DNA from: Terriglobia bacterium
Lineage (GTDB): Bacteria; Acidobacteriota; Vicinamibacteria; Vicinamibacterales; CAVVIG01
Assembly: GCA_020073005.1 (NCBI GenBank)
Contig: JAIQFX010000023.1
Location: forward strand, 1-53,673
Length of the DNA stretch: 53,673 nt
Reading direction: 5' to 3'
Part shown: positions 250 to 15,638 of the stretch, in pieces
How the letters are laid out: each line of letters opens with the position of its first letter
How positions within the stretch are numbered: the first letter of the stretch is position 1
Made by a program: the position numbers and the translations under genes
The notes under the pieces: generated by a model
The model's input: the letters and a program-made list of their open reading frames with translations, nothing else
The model's database searches: none
What the model was told of the DNA's origin: nothing

Positions 250-929
250 CCGCGGCGCCTTCAGTTCCGATGAGCCTTCGCAGCACCGTCTGGCGCGCGC
301 TCGCGTCGCGATACCCGTCGCTCTACTGGCTGCGCCGCGGGCGGACGTATTACCAGCAGCGCGAGGAAAGCGCGTGCGAGCGGCTGATGCACGAGGCCGT
401 CCTCGATCGTATCGCCGCCCTGAAGCCGTCGCGGCTGCTCGAGTACGGCGCCGGCAACGGATCGTTTCTCCGGAAGATCCAGGCGCGGATGCCGGATGTC
501 GAGTGCTTCGGCGTGGATTTTTCCGCGTCGCAGCTCGCCGTCGCGCGCGCGGCGATGCCCGGCGCGAACCTCTCGGTGGGCAACCTGACGCACCTGAAGT
601 TCGAGACCGGCGCTTTCGACGTCGTGGTCGGGCTGGGCGTGCTCATCTACGTGCGGCCGCAGGATCGCCGCCGCGTCTTTGGCGAGCTGCGCCGCGTGTG
701 CCGCGGACACCTCGTCGCGGTCGAATACATCACCAAGTTCTTCGACGCCGGGATGAAGGCGCGCTTCGACGGCGCCCGCGATTTCCGGTACGACTACGAC
801 ATCGAGCAGCACGTCCGCGACGCGGGGTTCGACGTTCTCGACGCCGGGAAAATCGCGGCGGCCTGGGATCCGGCGACCAACCCGCTGGGCGAGCTGCCGC
901 ACGGCATGATCGTGGCGCGCGCGAGATGA
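246..929 (+). CDS. Class I SAM-dependent methyltransferase
   Basis: Predicted 227-residue soluble methyltransferase. The SAM-binding motif I is LLEYGAGNGSFLRKI, followed by a motif II-like acidic strand end (CFGVDFSASQL) and a DVVVGLGVLIYV segment typical of the Rossmann fold. I chose GTG at 246 because it forms a GTGA 4-base overlap with the upstream stop, the commonest junction in this window. The ATG at 270 (protein starting MSLRS) is a good alternative. The C-terminus contains a DFRYDYDIEQHVRDAGF segment, which may position the acceptor. In this setting the acceptor is probably a sugar or glycan, but nothing in the sequence identifies it. Confidence 0.82.
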   Translation: MTAAPSVPMSLRSTVWRALASRYPSLYWLRRGRTYYQQREESACERLMHEAVLDRIAALKPSRLLEYGAGNGSFLRKIQARMPDVECFGVDFSASQLAVARAAMPGANLSVGNLTHLKFETGAFDVVVGLGVLIYVRPQDRRRVFGELRRVCRGHLVAVEYITKFFDAGMKARFDGARDFRYDYDIEQHVRDAGFDVLDAGKIAAAWDPATNPLGELPHGMIVARAR

Positions 930-2761
930 GCTCGCCCGCGATCCTGCTCGTCGATTCCTCCGCCACGCTCGAGGCCGCGCGAGACGCGGGTTGGCTCCGG
1001 CATCGGGATGTGACCGTCGTCGCCGCGACGAAGTACGGCGTCCACGCGTGTCACGCCGCGCGCGTCCCGTACACTGTGATCGACTCGTTCTATCCCGCGG
1101 CCGATCTCGTGGCGTTCACGCTCGCCGCCTACGATCGGCTGTCGGCGTTCTGCGAGGAGCGCGACGCCGCGCTGTGGCGGCGTCATGACGATCTGCGGCG
1201 GCGGGGCATCCGGCCGTTCCGGTTTTCGTTCTACGAACTGAAGATTCTCGCCGACGTCCTTTCAGTGAAACTGCTTCAGCTGCGCCGCCTGTTCGCCGTC
1301 CGGCCGGGCACGCGCGCGATCTACCGCGCGCCTGGTTCCACGGTTGATGCCGGCGCAGGATGGCCCATCGACGAGCGCTGCAATCTCTTCGGCGCGCTGC
1401 TCGAGTCGAACGGCGCGGGCTGCCCGGCGATCAGCCTCGAGCCGATCGCCGTCCCGTGCGAGGAGCGGCTCGGGCCCGCGCCGCGCGGGTCGCTCGAGGC
1501 GCGGGCGCGCCGGGCTGGCCGATCGCTGGTGGCCGCGATCGAGCGCGCCACGTCGGCCTCCGCCGCGGCGGCCTTCGTGCTGTTCGCGCCCGGCGGCCAC
1601 GACATTAGATATGTCCTGCCCGCGCTGAAGCGGCGCGGCCTCGCGCCCGTCGCCCTCCGGCGCAGCGGCCGTCCAGCCGCCATCGACCGCGCGCCGTATG
1701 CGGACACCTGGCGCGAATGGGTCGGCGACGAGGCGTTCGCCCGCTTCTTCTCGGTGGACGGCGTGAGCTACTTCCCGCTGGTGCGCGCGCGCCTCGAGCG
1801 CCTGATCGTGGAGGAGACGCCCGCCGCGATCGACGCGTACGACGACGCCGCCGCGCGCATCGAGCACTCGCGGGCGCTGAAGTTCGCCCTGACAGCCGTG
1901 GTCACGGTTTCCGCCGAAGAACGCAGCCAGATGAAGGCGTGTCAGGATGCGGGCTTGCCGCTCGTGACGTATCAGGAAGGCGCCGGCTTCGGATCGGTCG
2001 TCCACCCGATGAACGACTACGCGGAAATTGTCGATGGCGACGCGTTCCTCTGCTACGGCCCGGGCAACCTTGAATATCGCGACGCGCAGGCCGCGGCCGG
2101 CCGTCCCGCGAAACCCTTTGTCGTCGTCGGATCGGCGGAGCAGGATGACGTGCGCGCGCGTCTGCGCCCGAGGGCCACGCCGCGCACGGTGACGTCGATC
2201 ATGTACGTCGGCACCGGCGTCGCGGCCAACCGGCAGCATCATCCCTGCAACGGCGGAACGGATACGGCCTATGCCGCATCGCAACTCCTCCTGTTCGAGG
2301 CGCTCGCGCGGCTGTCGTCGCGCGTGACGGTGCGCGTCAAGCCGCACCCCAGCGATCCGCTGCCGGGCTGGTACTTCGATCGGCGGACGCATCCGCGCGT
2401 GGAGATGCTCGACGGCGTGCTCGAGGATCATCTCGACGGCACCGATTTGTTCATCGTGGACCATCCCTCGACCACGCTGCTCACCTGCTGTGAAACGGCG
2501 GCGCACGTGTACGTGCTGGCGAACCCCGCCATGACGCGCTTCACCGACGGTCAGCGCCGCTCGCTCGAGACGCGCGCGTTCGTGTTCGAGGACGCCGGCG
2601 CGCTCGTCCGCGCGCTGGACCAGCTGGCCGCCGGCGCGTTTCAAATGTCCGAGATTCGCGCGGACGACGACTACGTCCGCCGGTACGGCACGTATCTCGC
2701 CGACGGACAATCCGCCGAGCGGGCCGCGGCGTACCTCGACACGTTGGGGCGGGCCTCCTGA
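926..2761 (+). CDS. Large GT-B-like surface carbohydrate biosynthesis protein
   Basis: Predicted 611-residue cytoplasmic protein without clear membrane segments. The N-terminus (AILLVDSSATLEAARDAG) resembles a Rossmann-like sensor or carbohydrate domain. The C-terminal third carries features of GT-B folds seen in capsule and surface polysaccharide proteins: a VRVKPHPSDPLPGWYF strand-loop, then a DLFIVDHPSTTLLTCCETA segment equivalent to the donor-binding region. The ATG overlaps the upstream stop by 4 bases. It sits immediately before an SpsF-like cytidylyltransferase and a CMP-nonulosonate synthetase fusion. A glycosyltransferase using a CMP- or NDP-activated sugar from this locus is therefore the best inference. 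I cannot assign a GT family. It is distantly similar in layout to 48088-50049 and the N-terminal part of 3501-6125. Confidence 0.7.
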   Translation: MSSPAILLVDSSATLEAARDAGWLRHRDVTVVAATKYGVHACHAARVPYTVIDSFYPAADLVAFTLAAYDRLSAFCEERDAALWRRHDDLRRRGIRPFRFSFYELKILADVLSVKLLQLRRLFAVRPGTRAIYRAPGSTVDAGAGWPIDERCNLFGALLESNGAGCPAISLEPIAVPCEERLGPAPRGSLEARARRAGRSLVAAIERATSASAAAAFVLFAPGGHDIRYVLPALKRRGLAPVALRRSGRPAAIDRAPYADTWREWVGDEAFARFFSVDGVSYFPLVRARLERLIVEETPAAIDAYDDAAARIEHSRALKFALTAVVTVSAEERSQMKACQDAGLPLVTYQEGAGFGSVVHPMNDYAEIVDGDAFLCYGPGNLEYRDAQAAAGRPAKPFVVVGSAEQDDVRARLRPRATPRTVTSIMYVGTGVAANRQHHPCNGGTDTAYAASQLLLFEALARLSSRVTVRVKPHPSDPLPGWYFDRRTHPRVEMLDGVLEDHLDGTDLFIVDHPSTTLLTCCETAAHVYVLANPAMTRFTDGQRRSLETRAFVFEDAGALVRALDQLAAGAFQMSEIRADDDYVRRYGTYLADGQSAERAAAYLDTLGRAS

Positions 2762-2778: not shown

Positions 2779-3504
2779 GTGATTCAGGCGCGCATGGGTT
2801 CGACGCGCCTGCCGGGAAAGGCCCTGATGCCGGCGGCCGGGAAACCGCTGCTCGAGCATCTGATCGAACGGCTGCGGCGCGCGCGCTCGCTGAACCACGT
2901 GATCGTCGCGACGACGACGATGCCGGAGGACGACCAGATCGAGGCCGTGTGCCGCCGCCTCGGCGCGGGCTGCTTCCGCGGCAGCGTGGACGATGTGCTG
3001 GGTCGCGTTGCCGCGGCGCTGGACGCGTTCCGCGTCGACGTCCACGTGGAGGTCCACGGTGACGGCCCGCTCGCGGATTGGCGCCTGGTCGACCACGCCG
3101 TCGAAGAGTACTGCGCCGGCGGCGTCGATCTCGTCACCAACGCGGTGCGCATCACGTACCCGCCCGGACTGGAACTGTGGATCTATGCGTCGTCGCTCTG
3201 CGCGCGTCTCGCGCGGGAGGCGGCCGCGCCGAAATATCGTGAGAGCCCGATCCTGTACGTGATGGAGCGTCCCGGCGAGTTCCGCATCCGCAACATCGAG
3301 GCGCCGCCTGAGCTTCACGCGCCGGACACGTACCTCGAAGTGGACGAGGCGGCCGACTTCGCGGTGATGAAAACCGTCATCGAGCGGCTGTACCCGTCGA
3401 ACCCCGCGTTTCTTCCCGAGGATGCGCTCGCGCTGCTGCAGCGTGAACCGCAGCTGGCCGAGAGCAATCGCGCCGTCGTCCGGCGATGGAAGGCGGCCGA
3501 GTGA
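2779..3504 (+). CDS. SpsF-like cytidylyltransferase
   Basis: A 241-residue nucleotidyltransferase of the SpsF/acylneuraminate cytidylyltransferase group. The N-terminal nucleotide-binding signature IQARMGSTRLPGKAL is nearly textbook, and the VHGDGPLADWRLVDHAV segment corresponds to the usual GDCPLIDP metal/nucleotide site, with some substitutions. Family members normally have four to six residues before IQAR. Here the GTG at 2779 encodes the valine directly before IQAR, and the only in-frame upstream candidate is a CTG at 2758, so the true start may be non-standard. The enzyme probably activates a nonulosonate-like or other acidic sugar with CTP. It lies between two GT-B-like genes and ends in a 4-base overlap with the next one. 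Confidence 0.82.
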   Translation: MIQARMGSTRLPGKALMPAAGKPLLEHLIERLRRARSLNHVIVATTTMPEDDQIEAVCRRLGAGCFRGSVDDVLGRVAAALDAFRVDVHVEVHGDGPLADWRLVDHAVEEYCAGGVDLVTNAVRITYPPGLELWIYASSLCARLAREAAAPKYRESPILYVMERPGEFRIRNIEAPPELHAPDTYLEVDEAADFAVMKTVIERLYPSNPAFLPEDALALLQREPQLAESNRAVVRRWKAAE

Positions 3505-6125
3505 CGCCTCGTCCGCCGGATCGTGTCTGGGTCGATCGGCTTTCGCGCGAGTCGGTGCGCGCCGCCGTGGAGATCTGCCGGCAGAAGGGCATCGCCCGCA
3601 TCGAGTACCTCGAGTGGCCGACGACCGTGCACGAACCCGTGCCGCCAGGATCGCTCGATGCCGGACTGACGCTGCAGCCGATAGACGGCGATCTCTCGAC
3701 GCTGCGGTACGCGAGCGGACGCGGGATCAGATACGAATTGAATGAAGTGGTCGTCTCGCGTGTGCCCGAGACGTTGCGGCGGCGGATGGCCGCCACTGGA
3801 CTCGGCGACAGCACGCCTCGTCTGACGCCTGACGAAGTGTTCGCCGCGTTGCTGCGTTCCGCGGTCGTGAATCTGGTGTATCCGTCGGCGGCGCTTGCGC
3901 TGCTGGCTGCGGCCCGAAGCGACGACGGCTCGTCGCCGATCATCCTGATCGATGCTGCGGCCGGTGCGCTGGTGGGCGACTGGCCGGAGTGTCGCGGATG
4001 CGTCGTCCAGACATACAACGTCCGCCGGTCGGCGGCGGCGCGGTGCCGCGCGGCGCTCGGTGGCGGGCTGCGCGCGGTGAAAGAACTGTTGGGGCTGCAC
4101 CTCCGCGGCATTGCGTCCTCCGCTCCCGCGGACGGCGCTCCGCGCATTGCGCTGCAGCTGTTGCCCCACGTCAAAGGCGAGCCGCTCTGGTACCCGTGGT
4201 ACGAGGATTCGGGGATCGATGGTTCGCAGGTCTGCGTCTACGCGGACCGGCCCGACTTTCCGATCACCGCGGACGCCCGCGCCGCGATCGCGCGCAACAG
4301 GCACGCGTGGATCGATTTCCGGGCCGGCGCCGGCGCCGCGTGGGGACGGCCGTATGTCGCCGACGCGCGCGCGACGCTCGGCGAGTCGCTGCGGATCGTC
4401 CGCCTCGCGATGCGCGGCAGCGATCCATTTGTCGCCTGGGAGAGCGTCGAGCGGCAGCGGCTGCTGTGGCGCGTCGCGTTCTGGGAGTCGCTGTTCCGGC
4501 GGCATCGGATCGCGGCGTTGCTCCAGGTCGGCGAGACCGAGCCGCTGACGATCGCGCAGGCCGCCGCCGTCAGGCGCGCGGGCGGCATCAGCGTCGGCTG
4601 GCACTGGTCGCACTATCAGTTCGCCAGCGCCATGCACACGCGGTGCGGCTCGACGTATTTCTCGTGGGGGCCGTTTTACCGAGCGCTCTTCGTCCGGGAA
4701 CCCATGCGCGTGACCCAGCTCGTGTACGCCGGCCACATGCCGGGCCGGCCCGCGAAGCACCCGGCGCTCGCGCCCGCGGATCAACTCCGGCGCGCGGGCG
4801 CCACGTACGTCGTCTGTTATTTCGACACGTCGGTGTGGGCGCAATCGCGGCGGAGCGTGCTCGACCTGTACGCACGGTTGCTGACCCACGTCGCCCGCAC
4901 GCCCGGCTTCGGGCTGATCATCAAATCCAAGAAAGGCGTCCCGCTCGACATCCCGGAGTTGCGGGACGCCGACGCCGCGGCCCGCGCGACCGGCCGCGTT
5001 CTGGAATTGTCGCCCGAGACGTCGTCGCAGGATGCCGCCGCCGCGGCCGATCTCGTGGTGGGCCACGGGATCAACACGGCGGCGCTCGAGGCGGCGTTCG
5101 ACGGCCGCCGCGCGATCTACGCGGATCTGGATGGAGACGCGGCGAACGCGTTCTACGCGTGGGGCCGGAACACGGTCGTGTTCGATTCCCTGGACGGCGT
5201 GATGAACGCGATCGAGCGGCATCGCCTCGAAGGCGACGCCTCGGCCATCGGCGATCATCGCGCGATGCCGGCGACGATCAATCTCTTTGGCGATCACGCG
5301 GGTCACCGGCGCGCCGGCTGGTATCTGAAGACCTACCTCGACGATCTTTCCCGCCACGGCGATACCGCGAGGGCGCATCGGCACGCCGGTGCTGAATACC
5401 AGCGGCGCTTCGGCGCGGCGAGCGTGGTGTTCGACGCGGAAGGCGCGGGCGTCAGGATTCTCGGTCTCATTCCCGCGCGCGGCGGATCCCGGCGGCTGCC
5501 GGGCAAGAATCTGCAGCCGCTCGGCGGCCGGCCCCTGATCGCGTGGACGATCGACGCCGCGAAGCGCAGCCGCGCGTTCGATCGGATCGTGGTCTCGACA
5601 GACGACGAGGCGATCGCCGCCGTCGCGGCGGAGTGCGGCGCGGACGTGCCGTTCGTGCGCCCGCCGCAGCTGGCGACCGACGCCGCGTCGAGCGCGGACG
5701 TCGTGCGTCACGCGCTGGACGCGCTCCGCGCGCAGGGTTACGTGCCCGACATTCTGTTTCTGCTGCAGCCCACGTCGCCCTTCCGGCTGCCCGAAGACAT
5801 CGATACCGCGCTGGCGCTGCTGGCCGAACGCGGCGCCGACGCCGTTCTCGGCGCGACGGCCGCGGCGCAGAATCACGCGTCGCGCTGGCGCGTCAATGGA
5901 AACGGCTGGGCGGCGAGGATCGATGCCGCCGGTTCGCCGTCATCCGGCGAAACGCAGTACGCGATCAACGGCGCCATCTACGCGGTTCGCACCGAGGCGT
6001 TCCTGCGGGAGCAGACGCTGTTTCCCGCGCGCTCCGTGCTGTTCGTGATGCCGCCCGAACGCTCGCTGGATATCGACGTGCCGGTCGATCTGCAGCGGGC
6101 CGAGTCCATGGCGGCGGCGCGCTGA
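3501..6125 (+). CDS. Fusion: GT-B-like surface carbohydrate protein + CMP-nonulosonate synthetase
   Basis: A single 874-residue open frame with two parts. Residues 1 to about 645 form a GT-B-like region with strand-loop features such as VGWHWSHYQFASAMH and YFSWGPFYRALF, then GLIIKSKKGVPLDIP and a LVVGHGINTAALEAAFDGRRA donor-site-like stretch. Residues 651-874 are a complete CMP-N-acylneuraminate synthetase domain with IPARGGSRRLPGKN, a FLLQPTSPFR segment and the C-terminal SLDIDVPVDLQRAE metal/substrate motif (LegF/NeuA family). The domain is of full single-enzyme length, so this is a true fusion and not a fragment. I chose GTG 3501 because of the GTGA overlap; ATG 3486 is the alternative. 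Inference: it both makes the CMP-sugar and transfers it, a channelling arrangement. Confidence 0.8.
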   Translation: MTPRPPDRVWVDRLSRESVRAAVEICRQKGIARIEYLEWPTTVHEPVPPGSLDAGLTLQPIDGDLSTLRYASGRGIRYELNEVVVSRVPETLRRRMAATGLGDSTPRLTPDEVFAALLRSAVVNLVYPSAALALLAAARSDDGSSPIILIDAAAGALVGDWPECRGCVVQTYNVRRSAAARCRAALGGGLRAVKELLGLHLRGIASSAPADGAPRIALQLLPHVKGEPLWYPWYEDSGIDGSQVCVYADRPDFPITADARAAIARNRHAWIDFRAGAGAAWGRPYVADARATLGESLRIVRLAMRGSDPFVAWESVERQRLLWRVAFWESLFRRHRIAALLQVGETEPLTIAQAAAVRRAGGISVGWHWSHYQFASAMHTRCGSTYFSWGPFYRALFVREPMRVTQLVYAGHMPGRPAKHPALAPADQLRRAGATYVVCYFDTSVWAQSRRSVLDLYARLLTHVARTPGFGLIIKSKKGVPLDIPELRDADAAARATGRVLELSPETSSQDAAAAADLVVGHGINTAALEAAFDGRRAIYADLDGDAANAFYAWGRNTVVFDSLDGVMNAIERHRLEGDASAIGDHRAMPATINLFGDHAGHRRAGWYLKTYLDDLSRHGDTARAHRHAGAEYQRRFGAASVVFDAEGAGVRILGLIPARGGSRRLPGKNLQPLGGRPLIAWTIDAAKRSRAFDRIVVSTDDEAIAAVAAECGADVPFVRPPQLATDAASSADVVRHALDALRAQGYVPDILFLLQPTSPFRLPEDIDTALALLAERGADAVLGATAAAQNHASRWRVNGNGWAARIDAAGSPSSGETQYAINGAIYAVRTEAFLREQTLFPARSVLFVMPPERSLDIDVPVDLQRAESMAAAR

Positions 6126-7504
6126 TGCGGGCGCTGGCCGATCTCACGGCGATCCGCGACAGCGCGACCTTCAGTCGCCAGCTTGACGCGCTGCGCGATC
6201 AGGAATTCGCGTCGGCCGAGGCGCGGCTCGCGTTCCAGATGTCGGAAGTGCGGCGGCTGCTGACGCATTGCGGCGCGCACGTGCCGTACTACCGCCGGCT
6301 GTTCGATCGGCACGGGATCGATCCGCAGTCGATCCGGACGCCGGACGATTTCCGGCGCGTCCCGCTGCTCGACAAGGACACGATCAAAGCGCATCACGCC
6401 GACTTCATCGCCGACACCGTGGACACGCGCACTCTCGATCACCTCACGACGGGCGGGAGCACGGGCGCGCCGCTGAAGGTCATGATGGACGTCGAGTACA
6501 AGGCCCGCCGCCTGGCGACGACGTACTACTACATGGGGCTCGCGGGCCTGAATCCGGAGGAGTTCCGGTCGGTGCGGCTGCACGGCAACACGCTCGACGC
6601 CGCGCTGGTCGGCGCGTCGACGTTCTGGACGCTCGAAACGCCGGCGAAGCTCGTCATGTCGTCGTATCACATCACCGCCGTGACGGCGCCGCGCTACGTG
6701 GAGCAGATCAACCAGCATCGGCCCGACTACATTCACGCGTTCCCGTCGAGCCTCGCGCTCCTGGCCGAGTACGCGGAGAAACTGCCGCTGACGGTGACGG
6801 CGCGGCCGCGCGCGGTCTTCTGCGACAGCGAGGTGCTGTATCCGTGGCAGCGGCGTCTGATCGAACGCGTGTTCGCCGCGAAAGTCTACGACGTCTACGG
6901 TCACACGGAAGGCGCGGTGCTCGGCGTGTCCTGTCCGGCGTCCGAGAAACTTCATCTCGTGCCGCAGGTCGGCTACGCCGAAATCCTCGACGATCGGGAT
7001 CGTCCGATCGCCGCGCCGGCGCAGGCGGGCTGGATCGTCGTCACCGGGTTCCTGAACTACGCGTTCCCGATCGTCCGCTATCGCACCTTCGACCAGGGGA
7101 TCGTGAGCCGCGAGGGATGCCCGTGCGGCCGGCAGGCGCTCCTCCTCGACCGGATCGAAGGGCGCCTGCAGGACTTCGTCGTCGATCGCGCGGGCGGCCT
7201 CGTGCCGCTGGCGCCGGCGCTGTTCGACTACAACTTCGACTGGTCCGGCGTCGATCGCTTTCAGGTGTATCAGGAGACGCCGGGCAGGCTGACGTTCCGC
7301 GTCGTGCCCGAGGCCGCCGCGGCGCAGACGTTCGACGCGCTCGGCCGCCGGATCGCCTCCGGCTTCGAGCGCATTCTCAACGGTGGATTCGAGATCGAGA
7401 CCGTGCGGCTCGAGGCGATCGAGCCGACGGCGCGGGGCAAGCGCCGCTACCTGGATCAGAAGATCGATCTGGCGGCGTTCGCGCCCCGGCGAGGCGGCGC
7501 ATGA
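6125..7504 (+). CDS. CapK/PaaK-like AMP-forming acyl-activating enzyme
   Basis: A 459-residue member of the ANL superfamily, close in layout to phenylacetate-CoA ligase and the CapK proteins of capsule loci. The P-loop-like adenylation motif is TTGGSTGAPLKV near residue 115. VYDVYGHTEGAVLG supplies the YG-x-TE motif, and VRYRTFDQG with a zinc-type CPCGR segment precedes the C-terminal lid. Known relatives form acyl-adenylates and usually acyl-CoA. Its 1-base TGATG overlap with the CMP-synthetase fusion and 4-base overlap with the hydrolysing epimerase put it inside the nonulosonate core. I infer that it activates an acyl group destined for an amino sugar. The acid used cannot be told from sequence. 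Confidence 0.82.
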   Translation: MRALADLTAIRDSATFSRQLDALRDQEFASAEARLAFQMSEVRRLLTHCGAHVPYYRRLFDRHGIDPQSIRTPDDFRRVPLLDKDTIKAHHADFIADTVDTRTLDHLTTGGSTGAPLKVMMDVEYKARRLATTYYYMGLAGLNPEEFRSVRLHGNTLDAALVGASTFWTLETPAKLVMSSYHITAVTAPRYVEQINQHRPDYIHAFPSSLALLAEYAEKLPLTVTARPRAVFCDSEVLYPWQRRLIERVFAAKVYDVYGHTEGAVLGVSCPASEKLHLVPQVGYAEILDDRDRPIAAPAQAGWIVVTGFLNYAFPIVRYRTFDQGIVSREGCPCGRQALLLDRIEGRLQDFVVDRAGGLVPLAPALFDYNFDWSGVDRFQVYQETPGRLTFRVVPEAAAAQTFDALGRRIASGFERILNGGFEIETVRLEAIEPTARGKRRYLDQKIDLAAFAPRRGGA

Positions 7505-8670
7505 AGCGCTTCGCTCCGCCGTATCGCGTCGCCGTGTTCACAGGGTCACGCGCCGAGTTCGGTCTGCTGCAGTACGTGATGCAGGCGCTACGCGACGATC
7601 CGGCGTTCGAGCTGCAGGTGGTCGCCGGCGGCATGCATCTCAGCCCCGTGTTCGGCGACACCGTCCGCGAGATCGAGGCGTCGGGATTCGAGGTGCGGGA
7701 GCGCGTCGAGATGCTCGTGCCGTCCGACACGCCGCTCGCGAAGGCGCAATCGGTCGCGCGAGGCACGCACAACCTGGCGGACGCGCTGAACCGGCTCGCT
7801 CCCGACATCACGCTCTGCATGGGCGATCGGTTCGAGCTGCTGTCGCTGGCCGGCGTCGCGACGACGATGAATCTCGCGCTCGCGCACGTGTCGGGCGGCG
7901 AGATCACCGAAGGCGCGGTGGACGACAACATCCGCCACGCGATGACGAAGGTCAGCCATCTCCATTGCGTGGCGAACGACTGCTTCGCGGCCAGGATTCT
8001 CCAGATGGGCGAGGAGCCCTGGCGCGTGCTCGTGTCGGGCGAGCCCGGCCTCGACGCGATTTACCGCGTGGACTTTCTGACGCGCGAGGCGCTCGAAGCG
8101 GATTTGCGGACGCCGCTCGGCCGGAACACCGCGCTGGTGACGTTTCATCCGACGACGCGCGAGCTCGACGATCTGGATTCGCAGATTGAGGAATTCGTCT
8201 CCGCGCTCGGTGCCACGGACCTGCGCTTCATCATGACCGCGCCGAACGCCGACGCGGGCGGGCTGCGCATCCTCGCCGCCCTGCAGGCCTTCACCGCCGC
8301 GCATCCGGACCGCGCGACGTTCGTGCCGAGTCTGGGCCACCGGCGGTATCTGAGTCTGCTGAAGATCGTCGGCCTCGTCATCGGCAATTCGTCGAGCGGT
8401 CTCGTCGAGGCGCCCTCATTCAACGTGCCGGTGGTCAACATCGGGACGCGCCAGGCGGGCCGTCCGCAGGCCGCCAACGTCTTCCAGACCGGGTACAGCC
8501 GATCGTCGATCGCCGACGGCATCGCGCGCGCCCGCGCGTATGCCGGACCGCCGCCGGTCAACCCCTTCGGCGACGGGCACGCGTCCGCCAGGATCCACGA
8601 ATTTCTCCGCCGCGTCCTCGAAACGAAGACGCGCGACGAAGTCCTGAGGAAAAAATTTGTCACGCGCTGA
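7501..8670 (+). CDS. neuC: Hydrolysing NDP-N-acetyl-hexosamine 2-epimerase (NeuC/LegG type)
   Basis: A 389-residue GT-B-fold epimerase of the NeuC/LegG family, the step that releases NDP and inverts C2 to give the free mannosamine-type sugar used by NeuB. Visible features are TGSRAEFGLL at residues 14-23, GDRFELL (108-114), the SGGEITEGAVDD nucleotide/catalytic stretch (131-142), FHPTTRE and the IGNSSSGLVEAP donor-phosphate site. Length matches the family. ATG overlaps the previous stop by 4 bases. Because the locus also has LegB- and LegC-like genes, the likely substrate is a 2,4-diamino-2,4,6-trideoxy sugar (LegG role), not UDP-GlcNAc. That choice is inferred from context, not from residues. 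Confidence 0.88.
   Translation: MKRFAPPYRVAVFTGSRAEFGLLQYVMQALRDDPAFELQVVAGGMHLSPVFGDTVREIEASGFEVRERVEMLVPSDTPLAKAQSVARGTHNLADALNRLAPDITLCMGDRFELLSLAGVATTMNLALAHVSGGEITEGAVDDNIRHAMTKVSHLHCVANDCFAARILQMGEEPWRVLVSGEPGLDAIYRVDFLTREALEADLRTPLGRNTALVTFHPTTRELDDLDSQIEEFVSALGATDLRFIMTAPNADAGGLRILAALQAFTAAHPDRATFVPSLGHRRYLSLLKIVGLVIGNSSSGLVEAPSFNVPVVNIGTRQAGRPQAANVFQTGYSRSSIADGIARARAYAGPPPVNPFGDGHASARIHEFLRRVLETKTRDEVLRKKFVTR
8646..8650 (+). promoter_or_regulatory. Ribosome binding site supporting the TTG start at 8657
   Basis: GAGGA is followed by a six-base A/T-rich spacer and then TTG at 8657. No ATG or GTG is available nearby in that frame, so this purine-rich site decides the start of the PLP enzyme. 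It lies inside the end of the neuC-like gene, which overlaps the next gene by 14 bases. Confidence 0.6.
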
Positions 8671-9778
8671 CGCCGGACGCGCGCCGCTCGGCGGCGACTT
8701 TGCGCTCGATCCCGCGATCCTCGACGGACCGATCGTCCAGCAGCCGGACGCGTTCTTCGCGCTCGACCCGGATCGCACGGTGATCGTGGACTCGGGACGT
8801 TCGGCCCTGCGGCTGGCGATCGCCGCCGCCGGTCTCCTGGGAAAAACGATCCTGCTGCCCGACTATCTCTGCGGCGGCATCTTTTTCGATGTGCTCGAGT
8901 CGATGCGCGTGCGCTGGCGGCTGTTTCCGGTGCAGGACGATCTGCTTCCGCGGGCCGGCGCGCTCGAGGCGCTCGCCGGAGACGCGGACGCGGTGCTGAC
9001 GATCGACTACTTCGGCCTCGTGTCGACCGCGCCGCTGCTGGATCGCCTCAAGCAGCGCTATCCCGCGCTGGTGACCATCCTCGACGCCGTCCAGGATACG
9101 TACCAGGCGCGCGTCCGCCCCGTGCGCCCCGGCGTGGACTTCATGATGGCAAGCTTCCGGAAGACGTTCCCCGTGCCCGATGGCGGCTTCCTCTGGTCCC
9201 GCACGCCGGTCGATCAGCGTGCGGTCCCGCTCGCGCCGTCCCGGCGGTCGAGCAGCGATGCGTGGCTCGCCGGCGCGTTGTTGAAGCACGGCTTCGCCGG
9301 CGGCGCCGACGGCGGCGCGCGCGAGCGCGCGTACCTGAGCGCGTTCGAGCAGGCGAAGCGGACGTTCGACGGACCGCCGGCCGGGATGTCGGAGTGTTCG
9401 CTCGAGATTCTGCGCCGGCTGGATCTCGAGGCCATCGCCGCAGCGCGCGTCGCGAACTATCGCGCGCTGGCGTCCGCGCTGCGCGAGTGCCGGACGCTCT
9501 GCCCGATCGTGCCGGTTCCGGGCGCCGGGCACGTCCCGCTGTTCCTTCCCGTCCGCGTGGCACGCGGCGGCCGGACGGCGTGCCTCGAGCACCTGCGCGC
9601 GCGCGCGATCTATTGCCCGGTGCACTGGCCGCGCGACGCGCGTCAGGGCGCCACGGAGGCGGCGAGCCTGACGCTGCACGAGGACACCTTCAGCCTGCCG
9701 GTCGATCAGCGTCTGTCGGCCGGCGACCTCGCGCGCGTCACCGACGCGCTGCTCGCCTTCGATCGGAAGGCCGCATGA
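8657..9778 (+). CDS. Divergent DegT/DnrJ/EryC1-like PLP enzyme
   Basis: A 373-residue fold-type I PLP protein distantly related to sugar aminotransferases. Recognisable parts are a VDSGRSALRLAI cofactor-phosphate segment near residue 44, LLPDYLCGGIFF, an ILDAVQDTY aspartate strand near residue 141, and MASFRKTFPVPDGGFLW with the candidate Schiff-base Lys at about residue 169. The usual SFHPLK/SFNGNK context is replaced by SFRKTFPV, which puts it outside the main sugar-aminotransferase groups. The start is TTG, supported by a GAGGA site 6 bases upstream. It sits between neuC and neuB, so a role on the nonulosonate or its precursor is plausible. It may be an aminotransferase or another PLP reaction; I cannot tell which. 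Confidence 0.7.
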   Translation: MSRADAGRAPLGGDFALDPAILDGPIVQQPDAFFALDPDRTVIVDSGRSALRLAIAAAGLLGKTILLPDYLCGGIFFDVLESMRVRWRLFPVQDDLLPRAGALEALAGDADAVLTIDYFGLVSTAPLLDRLKQRYPALVTILDAVQDTYQARVRPVRPGVDFMMASFRKTFPVPDGGFLWSRTPVDQRAVPLAPSRRSSSDAWLAGALLKHGFAGGADGGARERAYLSAFEQAKRTFDGPPAGMSECSLEILRRLDLEAIAAARVANYRALASALRECRTLCPIVPVPGAGHVPLFLPVRVARGGRTACLEHLRARAIYCPVHWPRDARQGATEAASLTLHEDTFSLPVDQRLSAGDLARVTDALLAFDRKAA

Positions 9779-10782
9779 GCGTGTTCATCGTCGCGGAGGC
9801 CGGCGTCAATCACAACGGCGATCTCGCGCTCGCGAAGAAGCTCGTGGACGCGGCCGCGCGCGCGGGCGTGGACGCGGTCAAGTTCCAGACGTGGAAACCG
9901 GGCGAGTGCACGGGCCGGTTCGCGATCAAGGTGGACTATCTCGCGGAGAGCGGCGAGGCGGACAGCCGGTACGATCTCTCGCGCCGGCTCTGTCTGCCGT
10001 ACGACGCCTTCCGCGAGCTGCAGCCGTACTGCGCGGAGCGCGGCGTGCTGTTTCTCTCAACGCCGGACGGCTTCGAGAGCCTGGACTTTCTCGCCGACGA
10101 GCTGCGGATGCCGATCATCAAGATCGGCTCGACGGAAGTGACGCACCTGAAGTTCATCGAGAAGGCCGCGTCGAAGCAGCGGCCGATCCTGCTCTCGACC
10201 GGGCTCAGCCGTCTGGGCGAGATCGAGCGCTGCGTCGACGCGGTGCGGCGGCAGACGTCCGCGCCGCTGACGCTGCTGCAGTGCACGAGCGAGTATCCGG
10301 CGCCGCCCGACGAGGTCAACCTGCGCGCGATGCGCACGCTCGCCGACGTCTTCGGGACGCCGGTCGGGCTGTCCGATCACACGAGCGGCATCGACGCGTC
10401 GGTGGCGGCGGTCGCGCTCGGCGCATCGGTCATCGAGAAGCACTTCACGCTCGACACGACCATGCCGGGGCCGGATCACAAGGCGTCGCTCGATCCGGAC
10501 GAGCTCGGACGGCTGGTCACGAGCATCCGCGTCACCGAACGCATGCTCGGCGACGGCATCAAGCAGCCCACGGCGAGCGAGCGCAGGAATCTCGCCGGCA
10601 TCCGGCGCGGGGTCGTCGCCGCGCGCGCGATTCGCGGCGGGACGCGCCTCACCGCCGACATGATGACGGCGAAGCGGCCCTACGTCGGCCTCGATCCGGC
10701 CGACGCGGAGCTGCTCGTCGGCCGCACGGTGAACCGCGACCTGGCCGAAGACGAACCGATCCGGTGGAAGGACGTCGGGTGA
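9775..10782 (+). CDS. neuB: N-acylneuraminate/legionaminate synthase (NeuB/LegI)
   Basis: A 335-residue NeuB-family enzyme that condenses phosphoenolpyruvate with an N-acyl mannosamine-type sugar. The TIM-barrel domain runs to about residue 265 and shows AEAGVNHNGD (7-16), AVKFQTWKP (34-42), KIGSTEVTH, the LSDHTSG motif (199-205) and IEKHFTLD (220-227) with a metal-ligand His. It is followed by MPGPDHKAS, typical of the family. Residues from about 272 form a SAF/antifreeze-like domain (RRGVVAARAIRGGTRL) that closes the active site. ATG overlaps the previous stop by 4 bases. Legionaminate is favoured over sialate because of LegB/LegC genes elsewhere in the window. Confidence 0.93.
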   Translation: MSVFIVAEAGVNHNGDLALAKKLVDAAARAGVDAVKFQTWKPGECTGRFAIKVDYLAESGEADSRYDLSRRLCLPYDAFRELQPYCAERGVLFLSTPDGFESLDFLADELRMPIIKIGSTEVTHLKFIEKAASKQRPILLSTGLSRLGEIERCVDAVRRQTSAPLTLLQCTSEYPAPPDEVNLRAMRTLADVFGTPVGLSDHTSGIDASVAAVALGASVIEKHFTLDTTMPGPDHKASLDPDELGRLVTSIRVTERMLGDGIKQPTASERRNLAGIRRGVVAARAIRGGTRLTADMMTAKRPYVGLDPADAELLVGRTVNRDLAEDEPIRWKDVG

Positions 10783-11819
10783 ACGGGTTCCAGGACGATC
10801 CCGGCGTGTGGCAATCCTGCCTGGACCGGTTGCGCCCGCTCGGGCTCGGCGACATCTACTTCAGCCGCGCCTACCACCAGTTGAACCTCTGCGCGGCCGA
10901 TCGCGCGACCGCGTTCGCGTACGAAGACGGCGGCGACCTGTTCTTTCTGCCGATCGTGCGCAGGCCGGCGCCGCCCCAGTCGGAGGGCTGGTTCGACGCC
11001 GAGAGCGCGTACGGCTACGGCGGACCGCTGAGCACGTCGGCGCAGCGCGGCTTTCTGGAGGCGGCGTGGACCGCGTTTCTCGCGGCCGCGCGGCGGGAGC
11101 GGATTTTCTGCTGCTTCCTGCGCTTCCATCCGCTGCTCGAGAACCAGCGGTGGGCGCTGGAGCCGTGGGTGACGGCGTGCGATCAGCGCGCGACGGTCTG
11201 GATGGCGCTGGACACCGACGAAGAGGCCGCGCTGGCGCAGTATCGCGCGGACACGCGCAGCAAAGTCCGGAGGGCGCAGAGCAGCGCCATCGAGGTCACC
11301 CGGCTCGACGGGCGGGACGCGCTGCGGCGCTTCGCGCGTTTGTACCGCCAGACGATGATGGACGTCGAGGCCGGAGCGGAATACTTTTTCCCGGATGCGT
11401 ACTTCGATCGGATCGCCGACACCCTCGCCGGTCAGTACTCCGTCTTCCTCGCGACGCTGGACGGGCGGGAGATCGGCGGCGTGCTGACGCTGCAGTCCGA
11501 GCGGTTCGTCCACCTGCACCTTTCGGCGACCGACCGCAATACGCGGGGGCTCGGGACGGCGAACCTGCTGCGGCACGCCGCGATCGTCGCGCACCTCGGC
11601 GCGGGCAGGACGTTTCACTTCGGCGGCGGCCTCACGAACGATCCCGCGGATACGCTGCTGCAGTTCAAGAAGGGCTTCGCGAAGGAAACGGCGCGGTTCT
11701 ATATCGGCAAGGTCACGCCGGAGCCCGCGGTCTACCGCGCGTTCTGCGAGCGGTGGGAGCGCGCGCATCCGGACGGCGTCGGCGCCGCGGGCACGATGTT
11801 TCAGAAGTACCGGTTCTGA
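10779..11819 (+). CDS. FemAB-like/GNAT acyltransferase
   Basis: A 346-residue protein with the double-GNAT layout of FemAB/Acetyltransf_6 proteins. The second half holds YRADTRSKVRRAQSS, a DVEAGAEYFFPDAYFDRI segment, GREIGGVLTLQS and LLQFKKGFAKETARFYIGK, where FKKGF near the C-terminus is typical of this group in exopolysaccharide loci. The start is GTG in a GTGA overlap with neuB. FemAB enzymes move aminoacyl groups from tRNA, and related proteins in polysaccharide operons may acylate amino sugars. It directly follows neuB and shares the core with a CapK/PaaK enzyme, so it is a candidate for the missing N-acyltransferase step. That is inference only. Confidence 0.78.
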   Translation: MNGFQDDPGVWQSCLDRLRPLGLGDIYFSRAYHQLNLCAADRATAFAYEDGGDLFFLPIVRRPAPPQSEGWFDAESAYGYGGPLSTSAQRGFLEAAWTAFLAAARRERIFCCFLRFHPLLENQRWALEPWVTACDQRATVWMALDTDEEAALAQYRADTRSKVRRAQSSAIEVTRLDGRDALRRFARLYRQTMMDVEAGAEYFFPDAYFDRIADTLAGQYSVFLATLDGREIGGVLTLQSERFVHLHLSATDRNTRGLGTANLLRHAAIVAHLGAGRTFHFGGGLTNDPADTLLQFKKGFAKETARFYIGKVTPEPAVYRAFCERWERAHPDGVGAAGTMFQKYRF

Positions 11820-11830
11820 GAGCGCCGCAG

Positions 11831-12514
11831 ATGTGGGATTCCGGCTGGGATGACATCTTCAGAAAGAACGAGTGGGGCCGCTATCCCCCGGAAGAAGTCG
11901 TGCGCGTCGTCGCGCGCAATTTCTTCGGCGCGCCGAGGCGATCGGACGTCGCGATTCTCGAAATCGGGTGCGGGACTGGCGCGAACCTCTGGTTCGTCGC
12001 GCGGGAAGGGTTCCGCGCGTCCGGCATCGACGGCAGCCAGGTGGCCATCGATCGCGCGCGGCAGCGGATGGCCGAGGAGCATCTGACCGCCGATCTCCGC
12101 GTGGGCGACGTCGCGACGCTGCCGTACGCGAATGCGGCGTTCGACGCCGTGCTCGACGTCGAGTGTCTGTACGCGAACAGCCTGAAGGACTCGCGCGGCA
12201 TCGTGCGCGAGGTGCATCGCGTGCTGAAGCCCGGCGGACTCTTCTTCAGCAAGACGTTCATGACCGGGACCTACGGCGACGGCAAGGGCACGCGGCTCGA
12301 AGGCGAGCCGAACACGTACGTCGCGCTCGACGAGGGCGCGCTCCGGAAGGGTTACGGTCTCGTGCGCTTTTCGTCGGAGGCGGACGTGCGCGCGCTGTAC
12401 GAGCCGCTGTTCGACATCGAAACCCTGGACACGCTCGTCAGGACCGAGAAGAACCGCGCCTATGAGGTTCGAGAGTGGCTCGCGGTCTGCCGCGCCCTCC
12501 CGGTGCCGCGATGA
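11831..12514 (+). CDS. Class I SAM-dependent methyltransferase
   Basis: A 227-residue methyltransferase with motif I ILEIGCGTGANLWFVA, an acidic loop (ASGIDGSQVAIDRAR), post-I LRVGDVATLPYAN and VLKPGGLFFSKTFM, a layout close to Methyltransf_11/25 proteins. The start ATG lies 11 bases after the FemAB-like gene, and the end overlaps the CBS-nucleotidyltransferase by 4 bases. Similar small methyltransferases are regularly found beside NeuB and PtmE-like genes in flagellin and O-antigen glycosylation loci. An O- or N-methylation of the nonulosonate is a reasonable guess, but the acceptor is unknown. Confidence 0.85.
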   Translation: MWDSGWDDIFRKNEWGRYPPEEVVRVVARNFFGAPRRSDVAILEIGCGTGANLWFVAREGFRASGIDGSQVAIDRARQRMAEEHLTADLRVGDVATLPYANAAFDAVLDVECLYANSLKDSRGIVREVHRVLKPGGLFFSKTFMTGTYGDGKGTRLEGEPNTYVALDEGALRKGYGLVRFSSEADVRALYEPLFDIETLDTLVRTEKNRAYEVREWLAVCRALPVPR

Positions 12515-13578
12515 TCACGGACCTGACGCCGTTCTGCATCGGCCCGGACGCCACGCTCATCGACGCGATGCGGCTGATCGATCGCAACGCGAAGGGCATC
12601 GCGCTGGTGGTCGACGCGCGGCAGCATCTTCTGTACACGGTCACCGACGGCGACCTGCGCCGTGCGATTCTCCACGGCCTGAGCCTCGACATGACGCTGG
12701 CCGCGTGGGCGGCGACGCGGCCTGAATTCGGCAACAGCCGTCCCCGCAGCGTCCCGGTGGGCACGTCGTACGAGCGGATTCGCGAGATGCTGGAGCCCGA
12801 AGGCCTGCGGCACATGCCCGTCGTGGACGATGACGGCCGCGTGATCGGGCTCGTCGTCCTGACGGGTCCGCGGCGCGACGCGGACGCCGCCGTGCACGCC
12901 GTGGTGATGGCCGGCGGCCGCGGTTCGCGGCTGTCGCCGCTCACAGCCGAGACGCCGAAGCCGCTGCTGCCGGTCGGCGATCGTCCGCTCATGGAGCATC
13001 TGGTCGGGCAGTTGAAGGACGCGGGCATCGAGCGCCTGAGCGTCACGACGCATTACCGCGGCGACCAGATCAGGAGTCACTTCGGCGACGGACGCCGGTT
13101 CGGGCTCGAGATTGAATACGTCAACGAGGATCAGCCGCTCGGCACCGCGGGAGGGCTCGGTCTGCTCGCGCCGTGGAGCTCGACGCTGCTGGTCGTGAAC
13201 GGCGACATCCTGACGCGCGTGAACTACCAGTCGATGCTGTCGTTCCACCGCGAGAATCGCGCGGCGATGACCGTCGGCGTCCGGCAGTACAAGATTCCCG
13301 TCGCGTACGGCATCGTCGAGACCGACGGCGTCGAGATTCGCGCGATCAACGAGAAGCCGACGCTGCAGTTCTTTTCGAACGCCGGCCTGTACGTCATGGA
13401 GCCGTGCGTTCGTGAGTACCTCACGCCGGCGCGGCGGATCGACATGCCCGATCTGATTAGCGCGCTCGTGGCCGGCGGGCACAAGGTCGTCAGTTTCCCC
13501 ATCAGCGAGTACTGGCTCGACATCGGCCGGCACGAGGACTACCGCCAAGCGCAGGTCGACGTCAAAGAGGGTCATTAA
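12511..13578 (+). CDS. CBS-domain sugar-phosphate nucleotidyltransferase (PtmE-like)
   Basis: A 355-residue protein with two CBS motifs (residues 1-120, including VTDGDLRRAIL and HMPVVDDDGRVIGLV) followed by a nucleotidyltransferase domain with MAGGRGSRLSPLT (133-145), the ETPKPLLPVGDRPLMEH segment, LLVVNGDIL and YWLDIGRHEDY. This architecture matches PtmE of Campylobacter, which forms GDP-glucosamine for the GDP-dependent legionaminic acid route. The CBS pair may bind adenosyl ligands and tune activity. The ATG overlaps the methyltransferase stop by 4 bases. Together with NeuC, NeuB and a CMP synthetase this supports legionaminate-type synthesis. Other NTP/sugar pairs, such as mannose-1-phosphate, cannot be excluded by eye. 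Confidence 0.85.
   Translation: MITDLTPFCIGPDATLIDAMRLIDRNAKGIALVVDARQHLLYTVTDGDLRRAILHGLSLDMTLAAWAATRPEFGNSRPRSVPVGTSYERIREMLEPEGLRHMPVVDDDGRVIGLVVLTGPRRDADAAVHAVVMAGGRGSRLSPLTAETPKPLLPVGDRPLMEHLVGQLKDAGIERLSVTTHYRGDQIRSHFGDGRRFGLEIEYVNEDQPLGTAGGLGLLAPWSSTLLVVNGDILTRVNYQSMLSFHRENRAAMTVGVRQYKIPVAYGIVETDGVEIRAINEKPTLQFFSNAGLYVMEPCVREYLTPARRIDMPDLISALVAGGHKVVSFPISEYWLDIGRHEDYRQAQVDVKEGH
13567..13571 (+). promoter_or_regulatory. Strong ribosome binding site for the radical SAM gene at 13578
   Basis: GAGGG followed by a 6-base spacer and ATG at 13578. Most junctions in this window show little Shine-Dalgarno signal, so this clear site, together with the TAATG 1-base overlap, makes this start secure. 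Confidence 0.55.
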
Positions 13579-15638
13579 TGGGCGTACAGGTTTCGTTCGC
13601 CGATCTCACGCACACCGGTCAGGTCGTCGCGGCCAACACCTTTCCGTACGGGATCTCGATGGTGGCCGCGTACGCGAAGCACGCGCTCGGCGCGGACATC
13701 GACGCCGAGATCTTCAAGTACCCCGACGATTTCGCGTCCTACCTCGACCGCGTCACGCCGCAGATCGCGTGCTTCTCGTCGTTCTCGTGGAACATCCGGC
13801 TCGGCCACGAGTACGCGCGGCGCATCAAGGACGTCTCGCCCGGCACGATCACGTGCTTCGGCGGCCCGAATTTTCCGGACGCGCCGGAAGAGCAGGCGGC
13901 GTTCCTCCGCAAGTACCCATCGATCGACTTCTACTTCGAATTCGAAGGGGAGTTCGCGTTCGTCGAATTCTTCCGCGCGATGGTCGCGCGCACGTTCGAC
14001 GCCGCCGGCTTCAAGCGTGAGCGCGCGCTCGTCCCCAACATCCGTTACCTCGTCGACGGCGAGTTCGTCGCCGCGCCGCTGGCGCCGAAGATCGAGGATC
14101 TCAACCAGCTGCCGTCGCCGCACCTGACGGGCCTGTCCGACAAGTTCTACGACGGCGTGCTGATCCCGATGATCCAGTCGGCGCGCGGCTGCCCGTACCA
14201 GTGCACGTTCTGCTGGGAAGGCGGCCCGTACTTCCAGAAAGTGAAGCGCTACGACCTCGGCCGCGTGAAGGACGAGGTCCGCTACATCGCCGACCGGATC
14301 GGCAACGTCGCGGACCTGTGCATCGTCGACGCGAACTTCGGCATGTTCGGCGACGACCTCGAGCTGGCGCACGAGCTTTCGCGCATCCAGAAGTCGCACG
14401 CGCACAGCTGGCCGCGCACGATCCTGACCGCGACCGCGAAGAACCACAAAGAGCGGACGATGGAGATCGTGGACATACTCGGGGACACGATGCCGCCGAC
14501 GGCCGCCGTGCAGAGCACCGACACGGCGGTCCTCAAGCTCATCAAGCGGAAGAACGTCGCCAATGAGGTCCTCGCGAAGATGGCCGACCGCACGATGGAG
14601 CTCGGCGGCCAGACGGAAGCGGAAGTGATCCTCTGCCTCGAGGGTGAAGGGAAGGCGTCGCACTTCCGCACCATCGTCGACATGCTCGACGCGAACATGA
14701 GCTTCATCCGGATGTACCAGTTCATGATGCTGCCGGGCACGCAATCCGCGAGCCGGAAGACGCGCGAAACGTACGCGTTCATGACGCGCTATCGCGTGCT
14801 GCCGCGCTGCTTCGGCTGGTACCGGTTCCGCGGCGACCGGTTCTCCTGCGCCGAGATTGAGGAGATCGTCGTCGGCACGAGCACGATGCCGTACGAGGAC
14901 TATCAGGCGTGCCGCGATCTCCACCTGACCGTCGAGATCTTCAACAACGACTGGATCTTCTCGGACCTGATGCAGTACCTGCGGTCCTTCGGCATTCAGC
15001 GATCGGTCTTCATCTCGCGGCTGCAGGACGAGATCGTCAGCGGCAGGGCCGGGACGGCGCTCGCCGGCCTGTATGCCGACTACCGGGCCGAAGAGAAGAA
15101 GAATCTCTGGACCGATCTCGCGGAGGTCGAGGCGTTCGTGCAGCAGCCGGGCGTCATCCAGCGGTACATCGACGGCGAGTACGGCACGAACGAGCTGTAC
15201 AAGTACCGCGCGCTCGCGGTCTTTCCGCACATCGAGGACGTGCACCGCGTCGCGTACACGATTGCCGCGCGCCTGATCGACGAGGCCGGACGGAGCTCCG
15301 AGGACGTGTCCGAGTACCTCGAGGATCTCCGGGCGTTCAGCCTGGCGCGCAAGACCGATTGCCTCGAAACCGGCGCCGTGATTCGCCGGTCGTTCCACTA
15401 CGACTTCCCGGCGCTGGTTGCCCGGAGCTTCCGCGGCGACCCGCGCGACGCCCGCCGCACCGAGGGCGTCGAGGTCGAGATGTATCACTCGGAGCAGCAG
15501 AAGCAGCTGATCGGCACCTACGTCAAACAGTATTCGACGAGCCTGATCGGCCTCGGACGCATCCTGCTGCGCGCGAACATGAACCGCCTGTACCGCACGG
15601 CGCGAATCGCCGGCGAGTCGCTGCGCGCGGCCGGCTAG
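13578..15638 (+). CDS. Radical SAM protein with N-terminal B12-binding-like domain
   Basis: A 686-residue protein. Residues 1-150 form a Rossmann-like domain of the kind that binds cobalamin in this superfamily, with ACFSSFSWNIRLGHEYA and TCFGGPNFP segments, although no clear DxHxxG cobalamin motif is visible. The radical SAM core has the canonical CxxxCxxC at Cys205, Cys209 and Cys212 (ARGCPYQCTFCWEGG). A long C-terminal region (about 500-686) with aromatic and charged stretches has no family I recognise. Known relatives catalyse methylations, rearrangements and ring changes on unactivated carbons. In a glycan locus it may act on a sugar or a lipid carrier. Start ATG is preceded by a GAGGG site and overlaps the previous stop by 1 base. 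Confidence 0.85.
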   Translation: MGVQVSFADLTHTGQVVAANTFPYGISMVAAYAKHALGADIDAEIFKYPDDFASYLDRVTPQIACFSSFSWNIRLGHEYARRIKDVSPGTITCFGGPNFPDAPEEQAAFLRKYPSIDFYFEFEGEFAFVEFFRAMVARTFDAAGFKRERALVPNIRYLVDGEFVAAPLAPKIEDLNQLPSPHLTGLSDKFYDGVLIPMIQSARGCPYQCTFCWEGGPYFQKVKRYDLGRVKDEVRYIADRIGNVADLCIVDANFGMFGDDLELAHELSRIQKSHAHSWPRTILTATAKNHKERTMEIVDILGDTMPPTAAVQSTDTAVLKLIKRKNVANEVLAKMADRTMELGGQTEAEVILCLEGEGKASHFRTIVDMLDANMSFIRMYQFMMLPGTQSASRKTRETYAFMTRYRVLPRCFGWYRFRGDRFSCAEIEEIVVGTSTMPYEDYQACRDLHLTVEIFNNDWIFSDLMQYLRSFGIQRSVFISRLQDEIVSGRAGTALAGLYADYRAEEKKNLWTDLAEVEAFVQQPGVIQRYIDGEYGTNELYKYRALAVFPHIEDVHRVAYTIAARLIDEAGRSSEDVSEYLEDLRAFSLARKTDCLETGAVIRRSFHYDFPALVARSFRGDPRDARRTEGVEVEMYHSEQQKQLIGTYVKQYSTSLIGLGRILLRANMNRLYRTARIAGESLRAAG

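Follow-up and report, generated by a model that had tools for sequence, protein, structure and literature searches.

A PFTS-like GT-B protein fused to a NeuA-type cytidylyltransferase domain in an acidobacterial nonulosonate operon

The pairing of a glycosyltransferase with NeuA is already known from Campylobacter jejuni, where one report writes cgtA/neuA1 (orf5/10) as one gene, an N-acetylgalactosaminyl transferase together with a sialic acid gene (PMC7248181). Here we describe a PFTS-like version of the pairing with NeuA, which is new, encoded at positions 3501-6125 of a 53,673-nucleotide stretch of DNA from a Terriglobia bacterium of the Acidobacteriota (contig JAIQFX010000023.1), hereafter the window. 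We take the C. jejuni gene to be Cj1143 and its product to be a two-domain protein. As described, this single gene belongs to a sialylated surface-glycan locus and likewise unites a glycosyltransferase with a CMP-NeuAc synthetase; its transferase is of the N-acetylgalactosaminyl type, and the likeness to the present fusion is drawn by description, not by sequence.

Related systems are described in two further sources. In Bacillus subtilis, transfer of legionaminic acid (Leg) depends on spsF, which encodes a predicted cytidylyltransferase, and does not require the TagB-like SpsB, encoded beside the Leg genes; the same text cites TagB-domain candidates for transfer of pseudaminic acid (Pse) or Leg in T. 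forsythia, and states that, in 2020, a bacterial enzyme able to transfer legionaminic acid onto cell surfaces was still unreported (PMC7439481). A NeuB-phosphatase fusion has also been reported (PMC3438082). Our partial literature coverage returned no publication on a PFTS-NeuA fusion or on PFTS function. Maf4 of C. jejuni is reportedly presented as a putative legionaminyl transferase in the title of a 2021 paper (PMC9298399) and, together with the 2020 statement, this suggests that few such transferases are known.

We favour, with slightly better than even confidence, a reading of the fusion as a PFTS-like GT-B transferase of a sialic-acid-like sugar joined to a NeuA-type maker or binder of the CMP-sugar, within a nonulosonate operon. 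The N-terminal half would most likely take a sialic-acid-like sugar or related ulosonate, activated as its CMP form, and attach it to a surface glycan, and the C-terminal half would make, or at least bind, the CMP-sugar where it is used; a putative direct hand-over of CMP-sugar between the halves is plausible. What the computation shows is the unbroken frame, the assignment of each domain, the operon, the occurrence of single-gene relatives within nonulosonate loci and a second fusion; donor, acceptor, coupling and the activity of the NeuA domain are what we infer.

The fusion gene and its PFTS-like half

3501-6125 (+): fusion gene, PFTS-like GT-B transferase plus NeuA-like cytidylyltransferase, 874 residues, open frame without internal stop
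3501-5438 (+): PFTS-like GT-B domain, residues 1-646, with the GT-B core clearest at residues 321-542
5439-5450 (+): joint, residues 647-650, placed by alignment with the single-gene relative L162:9745-11646
5451-6125 (+): NeuA/PseF-like domain, residues 651-874, CTP loop and metal aspartates kept, Ser814/Ser815 at the Arg165/Gln166 places

The frame begins with a GTG codon (an alternative ATG at 3486 would add five residues) that overlaps the stop of the upstream SpsF-type gene (GTGA), and its own stop overlaps the ATG of the next gene (TGATG); because both ends overlap the neighbours, we read it as a single gene in a tight operon. The G+C fraction at third codon positions (GC3), taken in 30-codon blocks, ranges from 0.73 to 0.97 and stands at 0.77-0.80 at the joint with no sharp drop. 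The joint is open in one frame only, the other two frames carrying stops at 5326 and 5393. In alignment, the relative L162:9745-11646 stops one residue past fusion residue 646, which leaves almost no linker between the halves. The preliminary description had proposed one polypeptide here and had considered that a frameshift might have merged two genes. The uninterrupted frame, the even GC3, the lack of a second open frame across the joint and the overlaps with both neighbours uphold the single polypeptide, and the fusion is genuine as far as the assembly shows.

On profile comparison, the N-terminal 646 residues are a member of a PFTS-like family, distant kin of the NCBI ‘PFTS motif’ family. 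Used as a query, they returned only the window itself from 149 relatives, 396 same-phylum genomes (a set overlapping the relatives), plasmids and contigs of viruses, and had no PHROGs or PDB match; the whole fusion protein recovered no relative of this half from the genome contigs either. Among family libraries, TIGR04417 (‘polysaccharide biosynthesis PFTS motif protein’, NCBIfam) alone matched the half, at E 0.14. The match is weak, lies over the C-terminal GT-B half and, at 11.1 and 13.7 bits, falls short of the cut-off of 100; no Pfam model, polyST (sialyltransferase) included, matched the half at E<=1, and the TIGR04417 profile found nothing in the 396 phylum genomes. When TIGR04417 was run on 50 genomes from organisms with NeuA, two of them each yielded a sub-threshold protein (2.8e-07 and 7.7e-10, far under the 100-bit cut-off). 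The one from Omnitrophota (L161/L162) matches the fusion at 78.7 bits over residues 228-642 (E 3.8e-26 in a two-sequence search) and aligns over almost the whole N-terminal half, with 26% identity pairwise and 22% in a 15-row alignment; the one from Dehalococcoidales (L160/L163) was not significant against the half by sequence alone. A two-row profile combining the window half with the Omnitrophota relative then located 16 places in 14 of 107 Omnitrophota-phylum genomes, the source genome included. Relatives having surfaced by both routes, a reading of residues 1-646 as an orphan was rejected. With the window protein left out, a profile of 14 PFTS-like members scores it at 225.1 bits over residues 73-643. 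Members are ~580-730 residues long. In 14 alignment columns at most one of the 14 relatives departs from the shared residue, and the window protein keeps 13 of these columns, including K475-x-K477, D442, D542 and R604.

A GT-B fold for this half, which the preliminary description had surmised, is borne out by profile and model comparisons. The 14-member profile matched a GT-B profile of 31 proteins from NeuA neighbourhoods (F4) at 98.2% (P 4e-14). By hhalign, the N-terminal half itself reached 91.7% against F4 (P 8e-7) and 31.6% against a second profile, F2 (P 5e-4). None of 100 shuffles scored as high against these two profiles and, among 36 window proteins, just LegG and the 926-2761 protein did, both GT-B-like (the latter at 96.4% against F2). 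The five-row profile F3 gave no significant hhalign match, 16 of 100 shuffles and 12 of 36 window proteins being equally high; F1 gave nothing, and HMMER against F2 and F3 was not significant, with some shuffles above. An AlphaFold model of residues 300-645, built with 28 GT-B-like relatives (pLDDT 70.4, pTM 0.69), aligns at Z 12-14 with UDP-GlcNAc epimerases, TagF, TarL and glycosyltransferases, and Foldseek placed a polysialyltransferase-CDP structure (5wcn, 7e-6) among many GT-B folds. As its alignment consisted of GT-B-like proteins, the model is not independent evidence for the fold. Single-sequence AlphaFold of the whole fusion was poor (pLDDT 36); the alignment-free model reproduces the strands and helices of the other at 436-514, with pLDDT about 45-67 there. 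Confident modelling of the half thus spans residues 300-645, with none for 1-299.

The fusion has the GT-B C-terminal half in common with KpsS/TagB/LIC12162/CDP-glycerol transferase-like proteins, but their HP histidine, present in 27 of 28 GT-B-like relatives in the alignment, is Lys477 here and part of a K-x-K motif in all 14 PFTS-like relatives. Because the family keeps K-x-K throughout, loss of the histidine was rejected as a sign of a dead transferase.

Relatives, a second fusion and other NeuA fusions

Fourteen loci of the Omnitrophota phylum (L162, L180-L192; 4.7-19.5 kb each) carry PFTS-like genes, the matches in L190-L192 being weak (15-24 bits). NeuB is encoded in 9/14, a cytidylyltransferase in 9/14 and at least one of the two in 12/14. 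In L183 the gene row runs PFTS-like, phosphatase-like ORF, NeuA, NeuB and radical SAM-like ORF, the phosphatase and radical SAM labels being our presumption; in L189 a LIC12162-like gene immediately precedes the PFTS-like gene. The Dehalococcoidales stretch (L163/L101) holds PFTS-like, NeuA, NeuB, PseD-like and radical SAM genes on the same strand, and one PFTS-like relative has a CMP-Kdo synthetase-type gene in its gene row (KdsB, above cut-off in two NCBIfam models). Two nonulosonate loci each hold a pair of PFTS-like genes (L180:7288-9489 and 10663-12807; L185:6588-8642 and 12698-14905).

Among named NeuA loci (the best 80 of at least 584), a PFTS-like protein occurs in one (L101), and a same-strand GT-B-like frame, NeuC excluded, lies no more than 200 bases from NeuA in ten, eight of them at 50 bits or more. 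The separate adjacent genes that the preliminary description had suggested looking for thus exist, PFTS-like or other GT-B-like genes standing near or beside NeuA. One stretch, from Bacillus sp. FJAT-44742, has GT-B-like frames at 399-1754 and 8496-9986 (+) directly upstream of two NeuA genes, and contains no match to the window's NeuB.

A second fusion, L182:7015-9615 (-), comes from an Omnitrophota-phylum genome. This 866-residue protein has a PFTS-like region (242-627) followed by an SpsF-type cytidylyltransferase (638-843), with even GC3 and a joint similar to that of the window fusion; among 17 PFTS-like ORFs listed, it alone also matches a cytidylyltransferase. Tree nodes with support of 0.986 and 1.000 part it from the window protein and, since the C-terminal domains are also of different types (NeuA versus SpsF), the two fusions look independent. 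NeuB in 9 of the 14 loci and this second fusion suggest that PFTS-like proteins probably work as partners of CMP-ulosonates. The broader proposal, that they form a GT-B family, so far unrecognised, that transfers ulosonates (Kdo/nonulosonate) from their CMP forms, and that the NeuA and SpsF fusions reveal both the donor and a coupled activation-transfer enzyme, is more tentative, and we place it somewhat short of an even chance.

NeuA had been described as normally stand-alone. On its N-terminal side this generally holds, as none of the 80 named loci has a comparable coding extension: extensions there are short or, by GC3, chance frames, and the longest with high GC3 are those of L077 (about 105 residues) and L084, the latter overlapping an upstream GT-B frame. 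It does not hold for the C-terminal side in relatives, nor for C. jejuni cgtA/neuA1. In 20 stretches with long NeuA frames, taken from a larger set, the upstream part is nearly always a chance frame (GC3 about 0.4-0.6 versus 0.8-1.0 in NeuA), while in 9/20 the downstream side carries a coding extension. In relatives of the window genome, the C-terminal side of NeuA is fused to a GT28-like domain (L045, L046, L059, L061-L063), which in L045 we take to be PseG/SpsG-like, to a methyltransferase (L051, L052) or to NeuB (L060); L045, L051 and L060 have a Pfam basis, and L046 rests on frame and GC3. NeuA matches on an Azospirillum plasmid and in Rhodobacteraceae that seemed to extend upstream proved to be stand-alone genes. 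The Pfam-based C-terminal fusions are as follows.

L045:3946-5643: NeuA with GT28-like domain
L051:3989-5683: NeuA with methyltransferase
L060:4986-6746: NeuA with NeuB

Operon context and the NeuA-type half

The fusion gene lies in an operon with the following members.

926-2761 (+): LIC12162-like GT-B protein, KPHP motif present (TIGR04331 6.6e-07, 28.4 bits; cut-off 225 not reached)
2779-3504 (+): SpsF-type cytidylyltransferase, labelled by similarity (PF02348 98.1 bits; 4-base overlap with the fusion gene)
6125-7504 (+): PaaK-like AMP-dependent ligase (family-library match)
7501-8670 (+): NeuC/LegG-type UDP-GlcNAc 2-epimerase (TIGR03568 above cut-off)
9775-10782 (+): NeuB-type nonulosonate synthase (TIGR03569 398.0 bits; cut-off 399.65)
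12511-13578 (+): CBS plus sugar nucleotidyltransferase (family-library match), presumably PtmE-like

It also encodes a weakly DegT-like protein, a FemAB protein, a methyltransferase and a B12-binding radical SAM protein. The SpsF-type protein shares 31% identity with the corresponding cytidylyltransferase domain in L182. The PaaK-like ligase and a FemAB-like acyltransferase (10779-11819) lie within this nonulosonate operon, and acyl or aminoacyl decoration of the sugar is possible. Elsewhere in the window, 42276-43037 holds another NeuA/PseF-like gene (TIGR03584 73 bits) neighboured by genes for an SDR and a D-2-hydroxyacid dehydrogenase-like protein, and further NeuA-type genes are present in the same genome. 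Four long NeuB matches (one each on contigs C86 and C93, two on C165) and a weaker partial one (C68) suggest that this genome perhaps has several nonulosonate pathways.

Residues 654-871 match PF02348 at 91.7 bits (cut-off 22.6) and the PDB entry for NeuA 9ftb at E 1.4e-38; against the PseF equivalog TIGR03584 they score 157.2 bits, under its cut-off of 205.7. Both motifs named in the preliminary description, IPARGGSRRLPGKN and SLDIDVPVDLQ, are found. Relative to Neisseria NeuA, the CTP loop is kept (Arg660, Lys669, Asn670), as are the metal aspartates (Asp857/Asp859 for Asp209/Asp211), Gln104 (Gln756), Asn175 (Asn823) and Tyr179 (Tyr827); Lys142 is replaced by Arg795, still basic. The domain therefore has its fold, CTP loop and metal aspartates in common with stand-alone NeuA/PseF proteins (TIGR03584, PF02348), and differs from them in being fused and in having no Arg-Gln pair.

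Several observations weigh against the reading that we favour. Neisseria Arg165/Gln166, which belong to the sugar carboxylate and dimer loop, are Ser814/Ser815 in the fusion, and rows with neither the Arg nor a Gln or acidic partner number 3 of 129, the window among them. The adjoining SpsF-type enzyme means that the NeuA domain may not be needed for CMP-sugar. A fusion to NeuA is no proof of CMP-sugar use, since NeuA1 of C. jejuni has a GalNAc transferase as its partner. The exact fusion was found in one genome only among those searched, so the further PFTS-like/NeuA proteins that the preliminary description had suggested seeking did not materialise, the nearest being L182; and our literature search found no PFTS-like protein with a tested function.

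The most serious alternative, which we consider appreciably less probable than the favoured reading, is that the NeuA-like domain is inactive as a synthetase and instead binds CMP/CTP, mediates oligomerisation or has a regulatory role, with the CMP-sugar made by the SpsF-type protein (2779-3504) or another NeuA. In the Neisseria enzyme, R165A is inactive and Q166A strongly reduced (PMC2901514), and the equivalent arginine is termed catalytic in a second source (PMC6580227). The requirement for SpsF in B. subtilis (PMC7439481) and the additional NeuA-type genes of the same genome point the same way. Against this stand the conserved CTP loop, Gln756, Arg795, Asn823, Tyr827 and Asp857/Asp859, together with the variability of the site itself. 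In an alignment of 134 NeuA-type rows (window included, with a few near-duplicates), 129 have letters at these columns: Arg occupies the first in 108, and Gln, Glu or Asp the second in 126. Arg is absent from 21 rows, the window included, 18 of which have Gln or Glu beside it, so Arg is not strictly invariant here. The NeuA proteins of PFTS-bearing loci read RRQD (L183) and NRQ (L184), both residues kept, and a variant ISQ (L163). Judged by its residues, synthetase competence of this half is doubtful: the preliminary description had called the C-terminal 224 residues a complete synthetase, of which the NeuA match and both motifs stand and the completeness, with the Arg-Gln pair replaced, is not fully upheld.

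Donor of the PFTS-like family and implications

It is also conceivable, if unlikely, that the PFTS-like half uses another donor, such as a UDP-sugar, and that the genes were fused merely as operon neighbours. The GalNAc transferase joined to NeuA in C. jejuni (PMC7248181) and the dispensability of SpsB for Leg transfer in B. subtilis (PMC7439481) are in line with this, but in different phyla PFTS-like domains have been joined to NeuA in one case and to SpsF, another type of cytidylyltransferase, in the other, and one relative shares its gene row with the KdsB-type gene. A merge of two adjacent genes by assembly or sequencing error is very improbable: the assembly is a single draft (179 contigs, 4.63% contamination) and a small change could merge a relative ending one residue past the joint with a NeuA beginning about 5 residues on, but GC3 is even, the joint has no second open frame and L182 has the same architecture with a similar joint.

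On the favoured reading, of a PFTS-like transferase joined to a NeuA-type CMP-sugar maker or binder, the altered NeuA half offers a test of whether Arg165/Gln166 are truly indispensable. The donor hypothesis for the PFTS-like family is a more interesting result than the fusion itself. An uncharacterised GT-B family fused to a CMP-nonulosonate synthetase domain, and again to an SpsF-type enzyme in another phylum, provides a concrete candidate transferase family, and the two fusions make its donor directly testable. The second, apparently independent fusion suggests that transfer and CMP-activation belong together.

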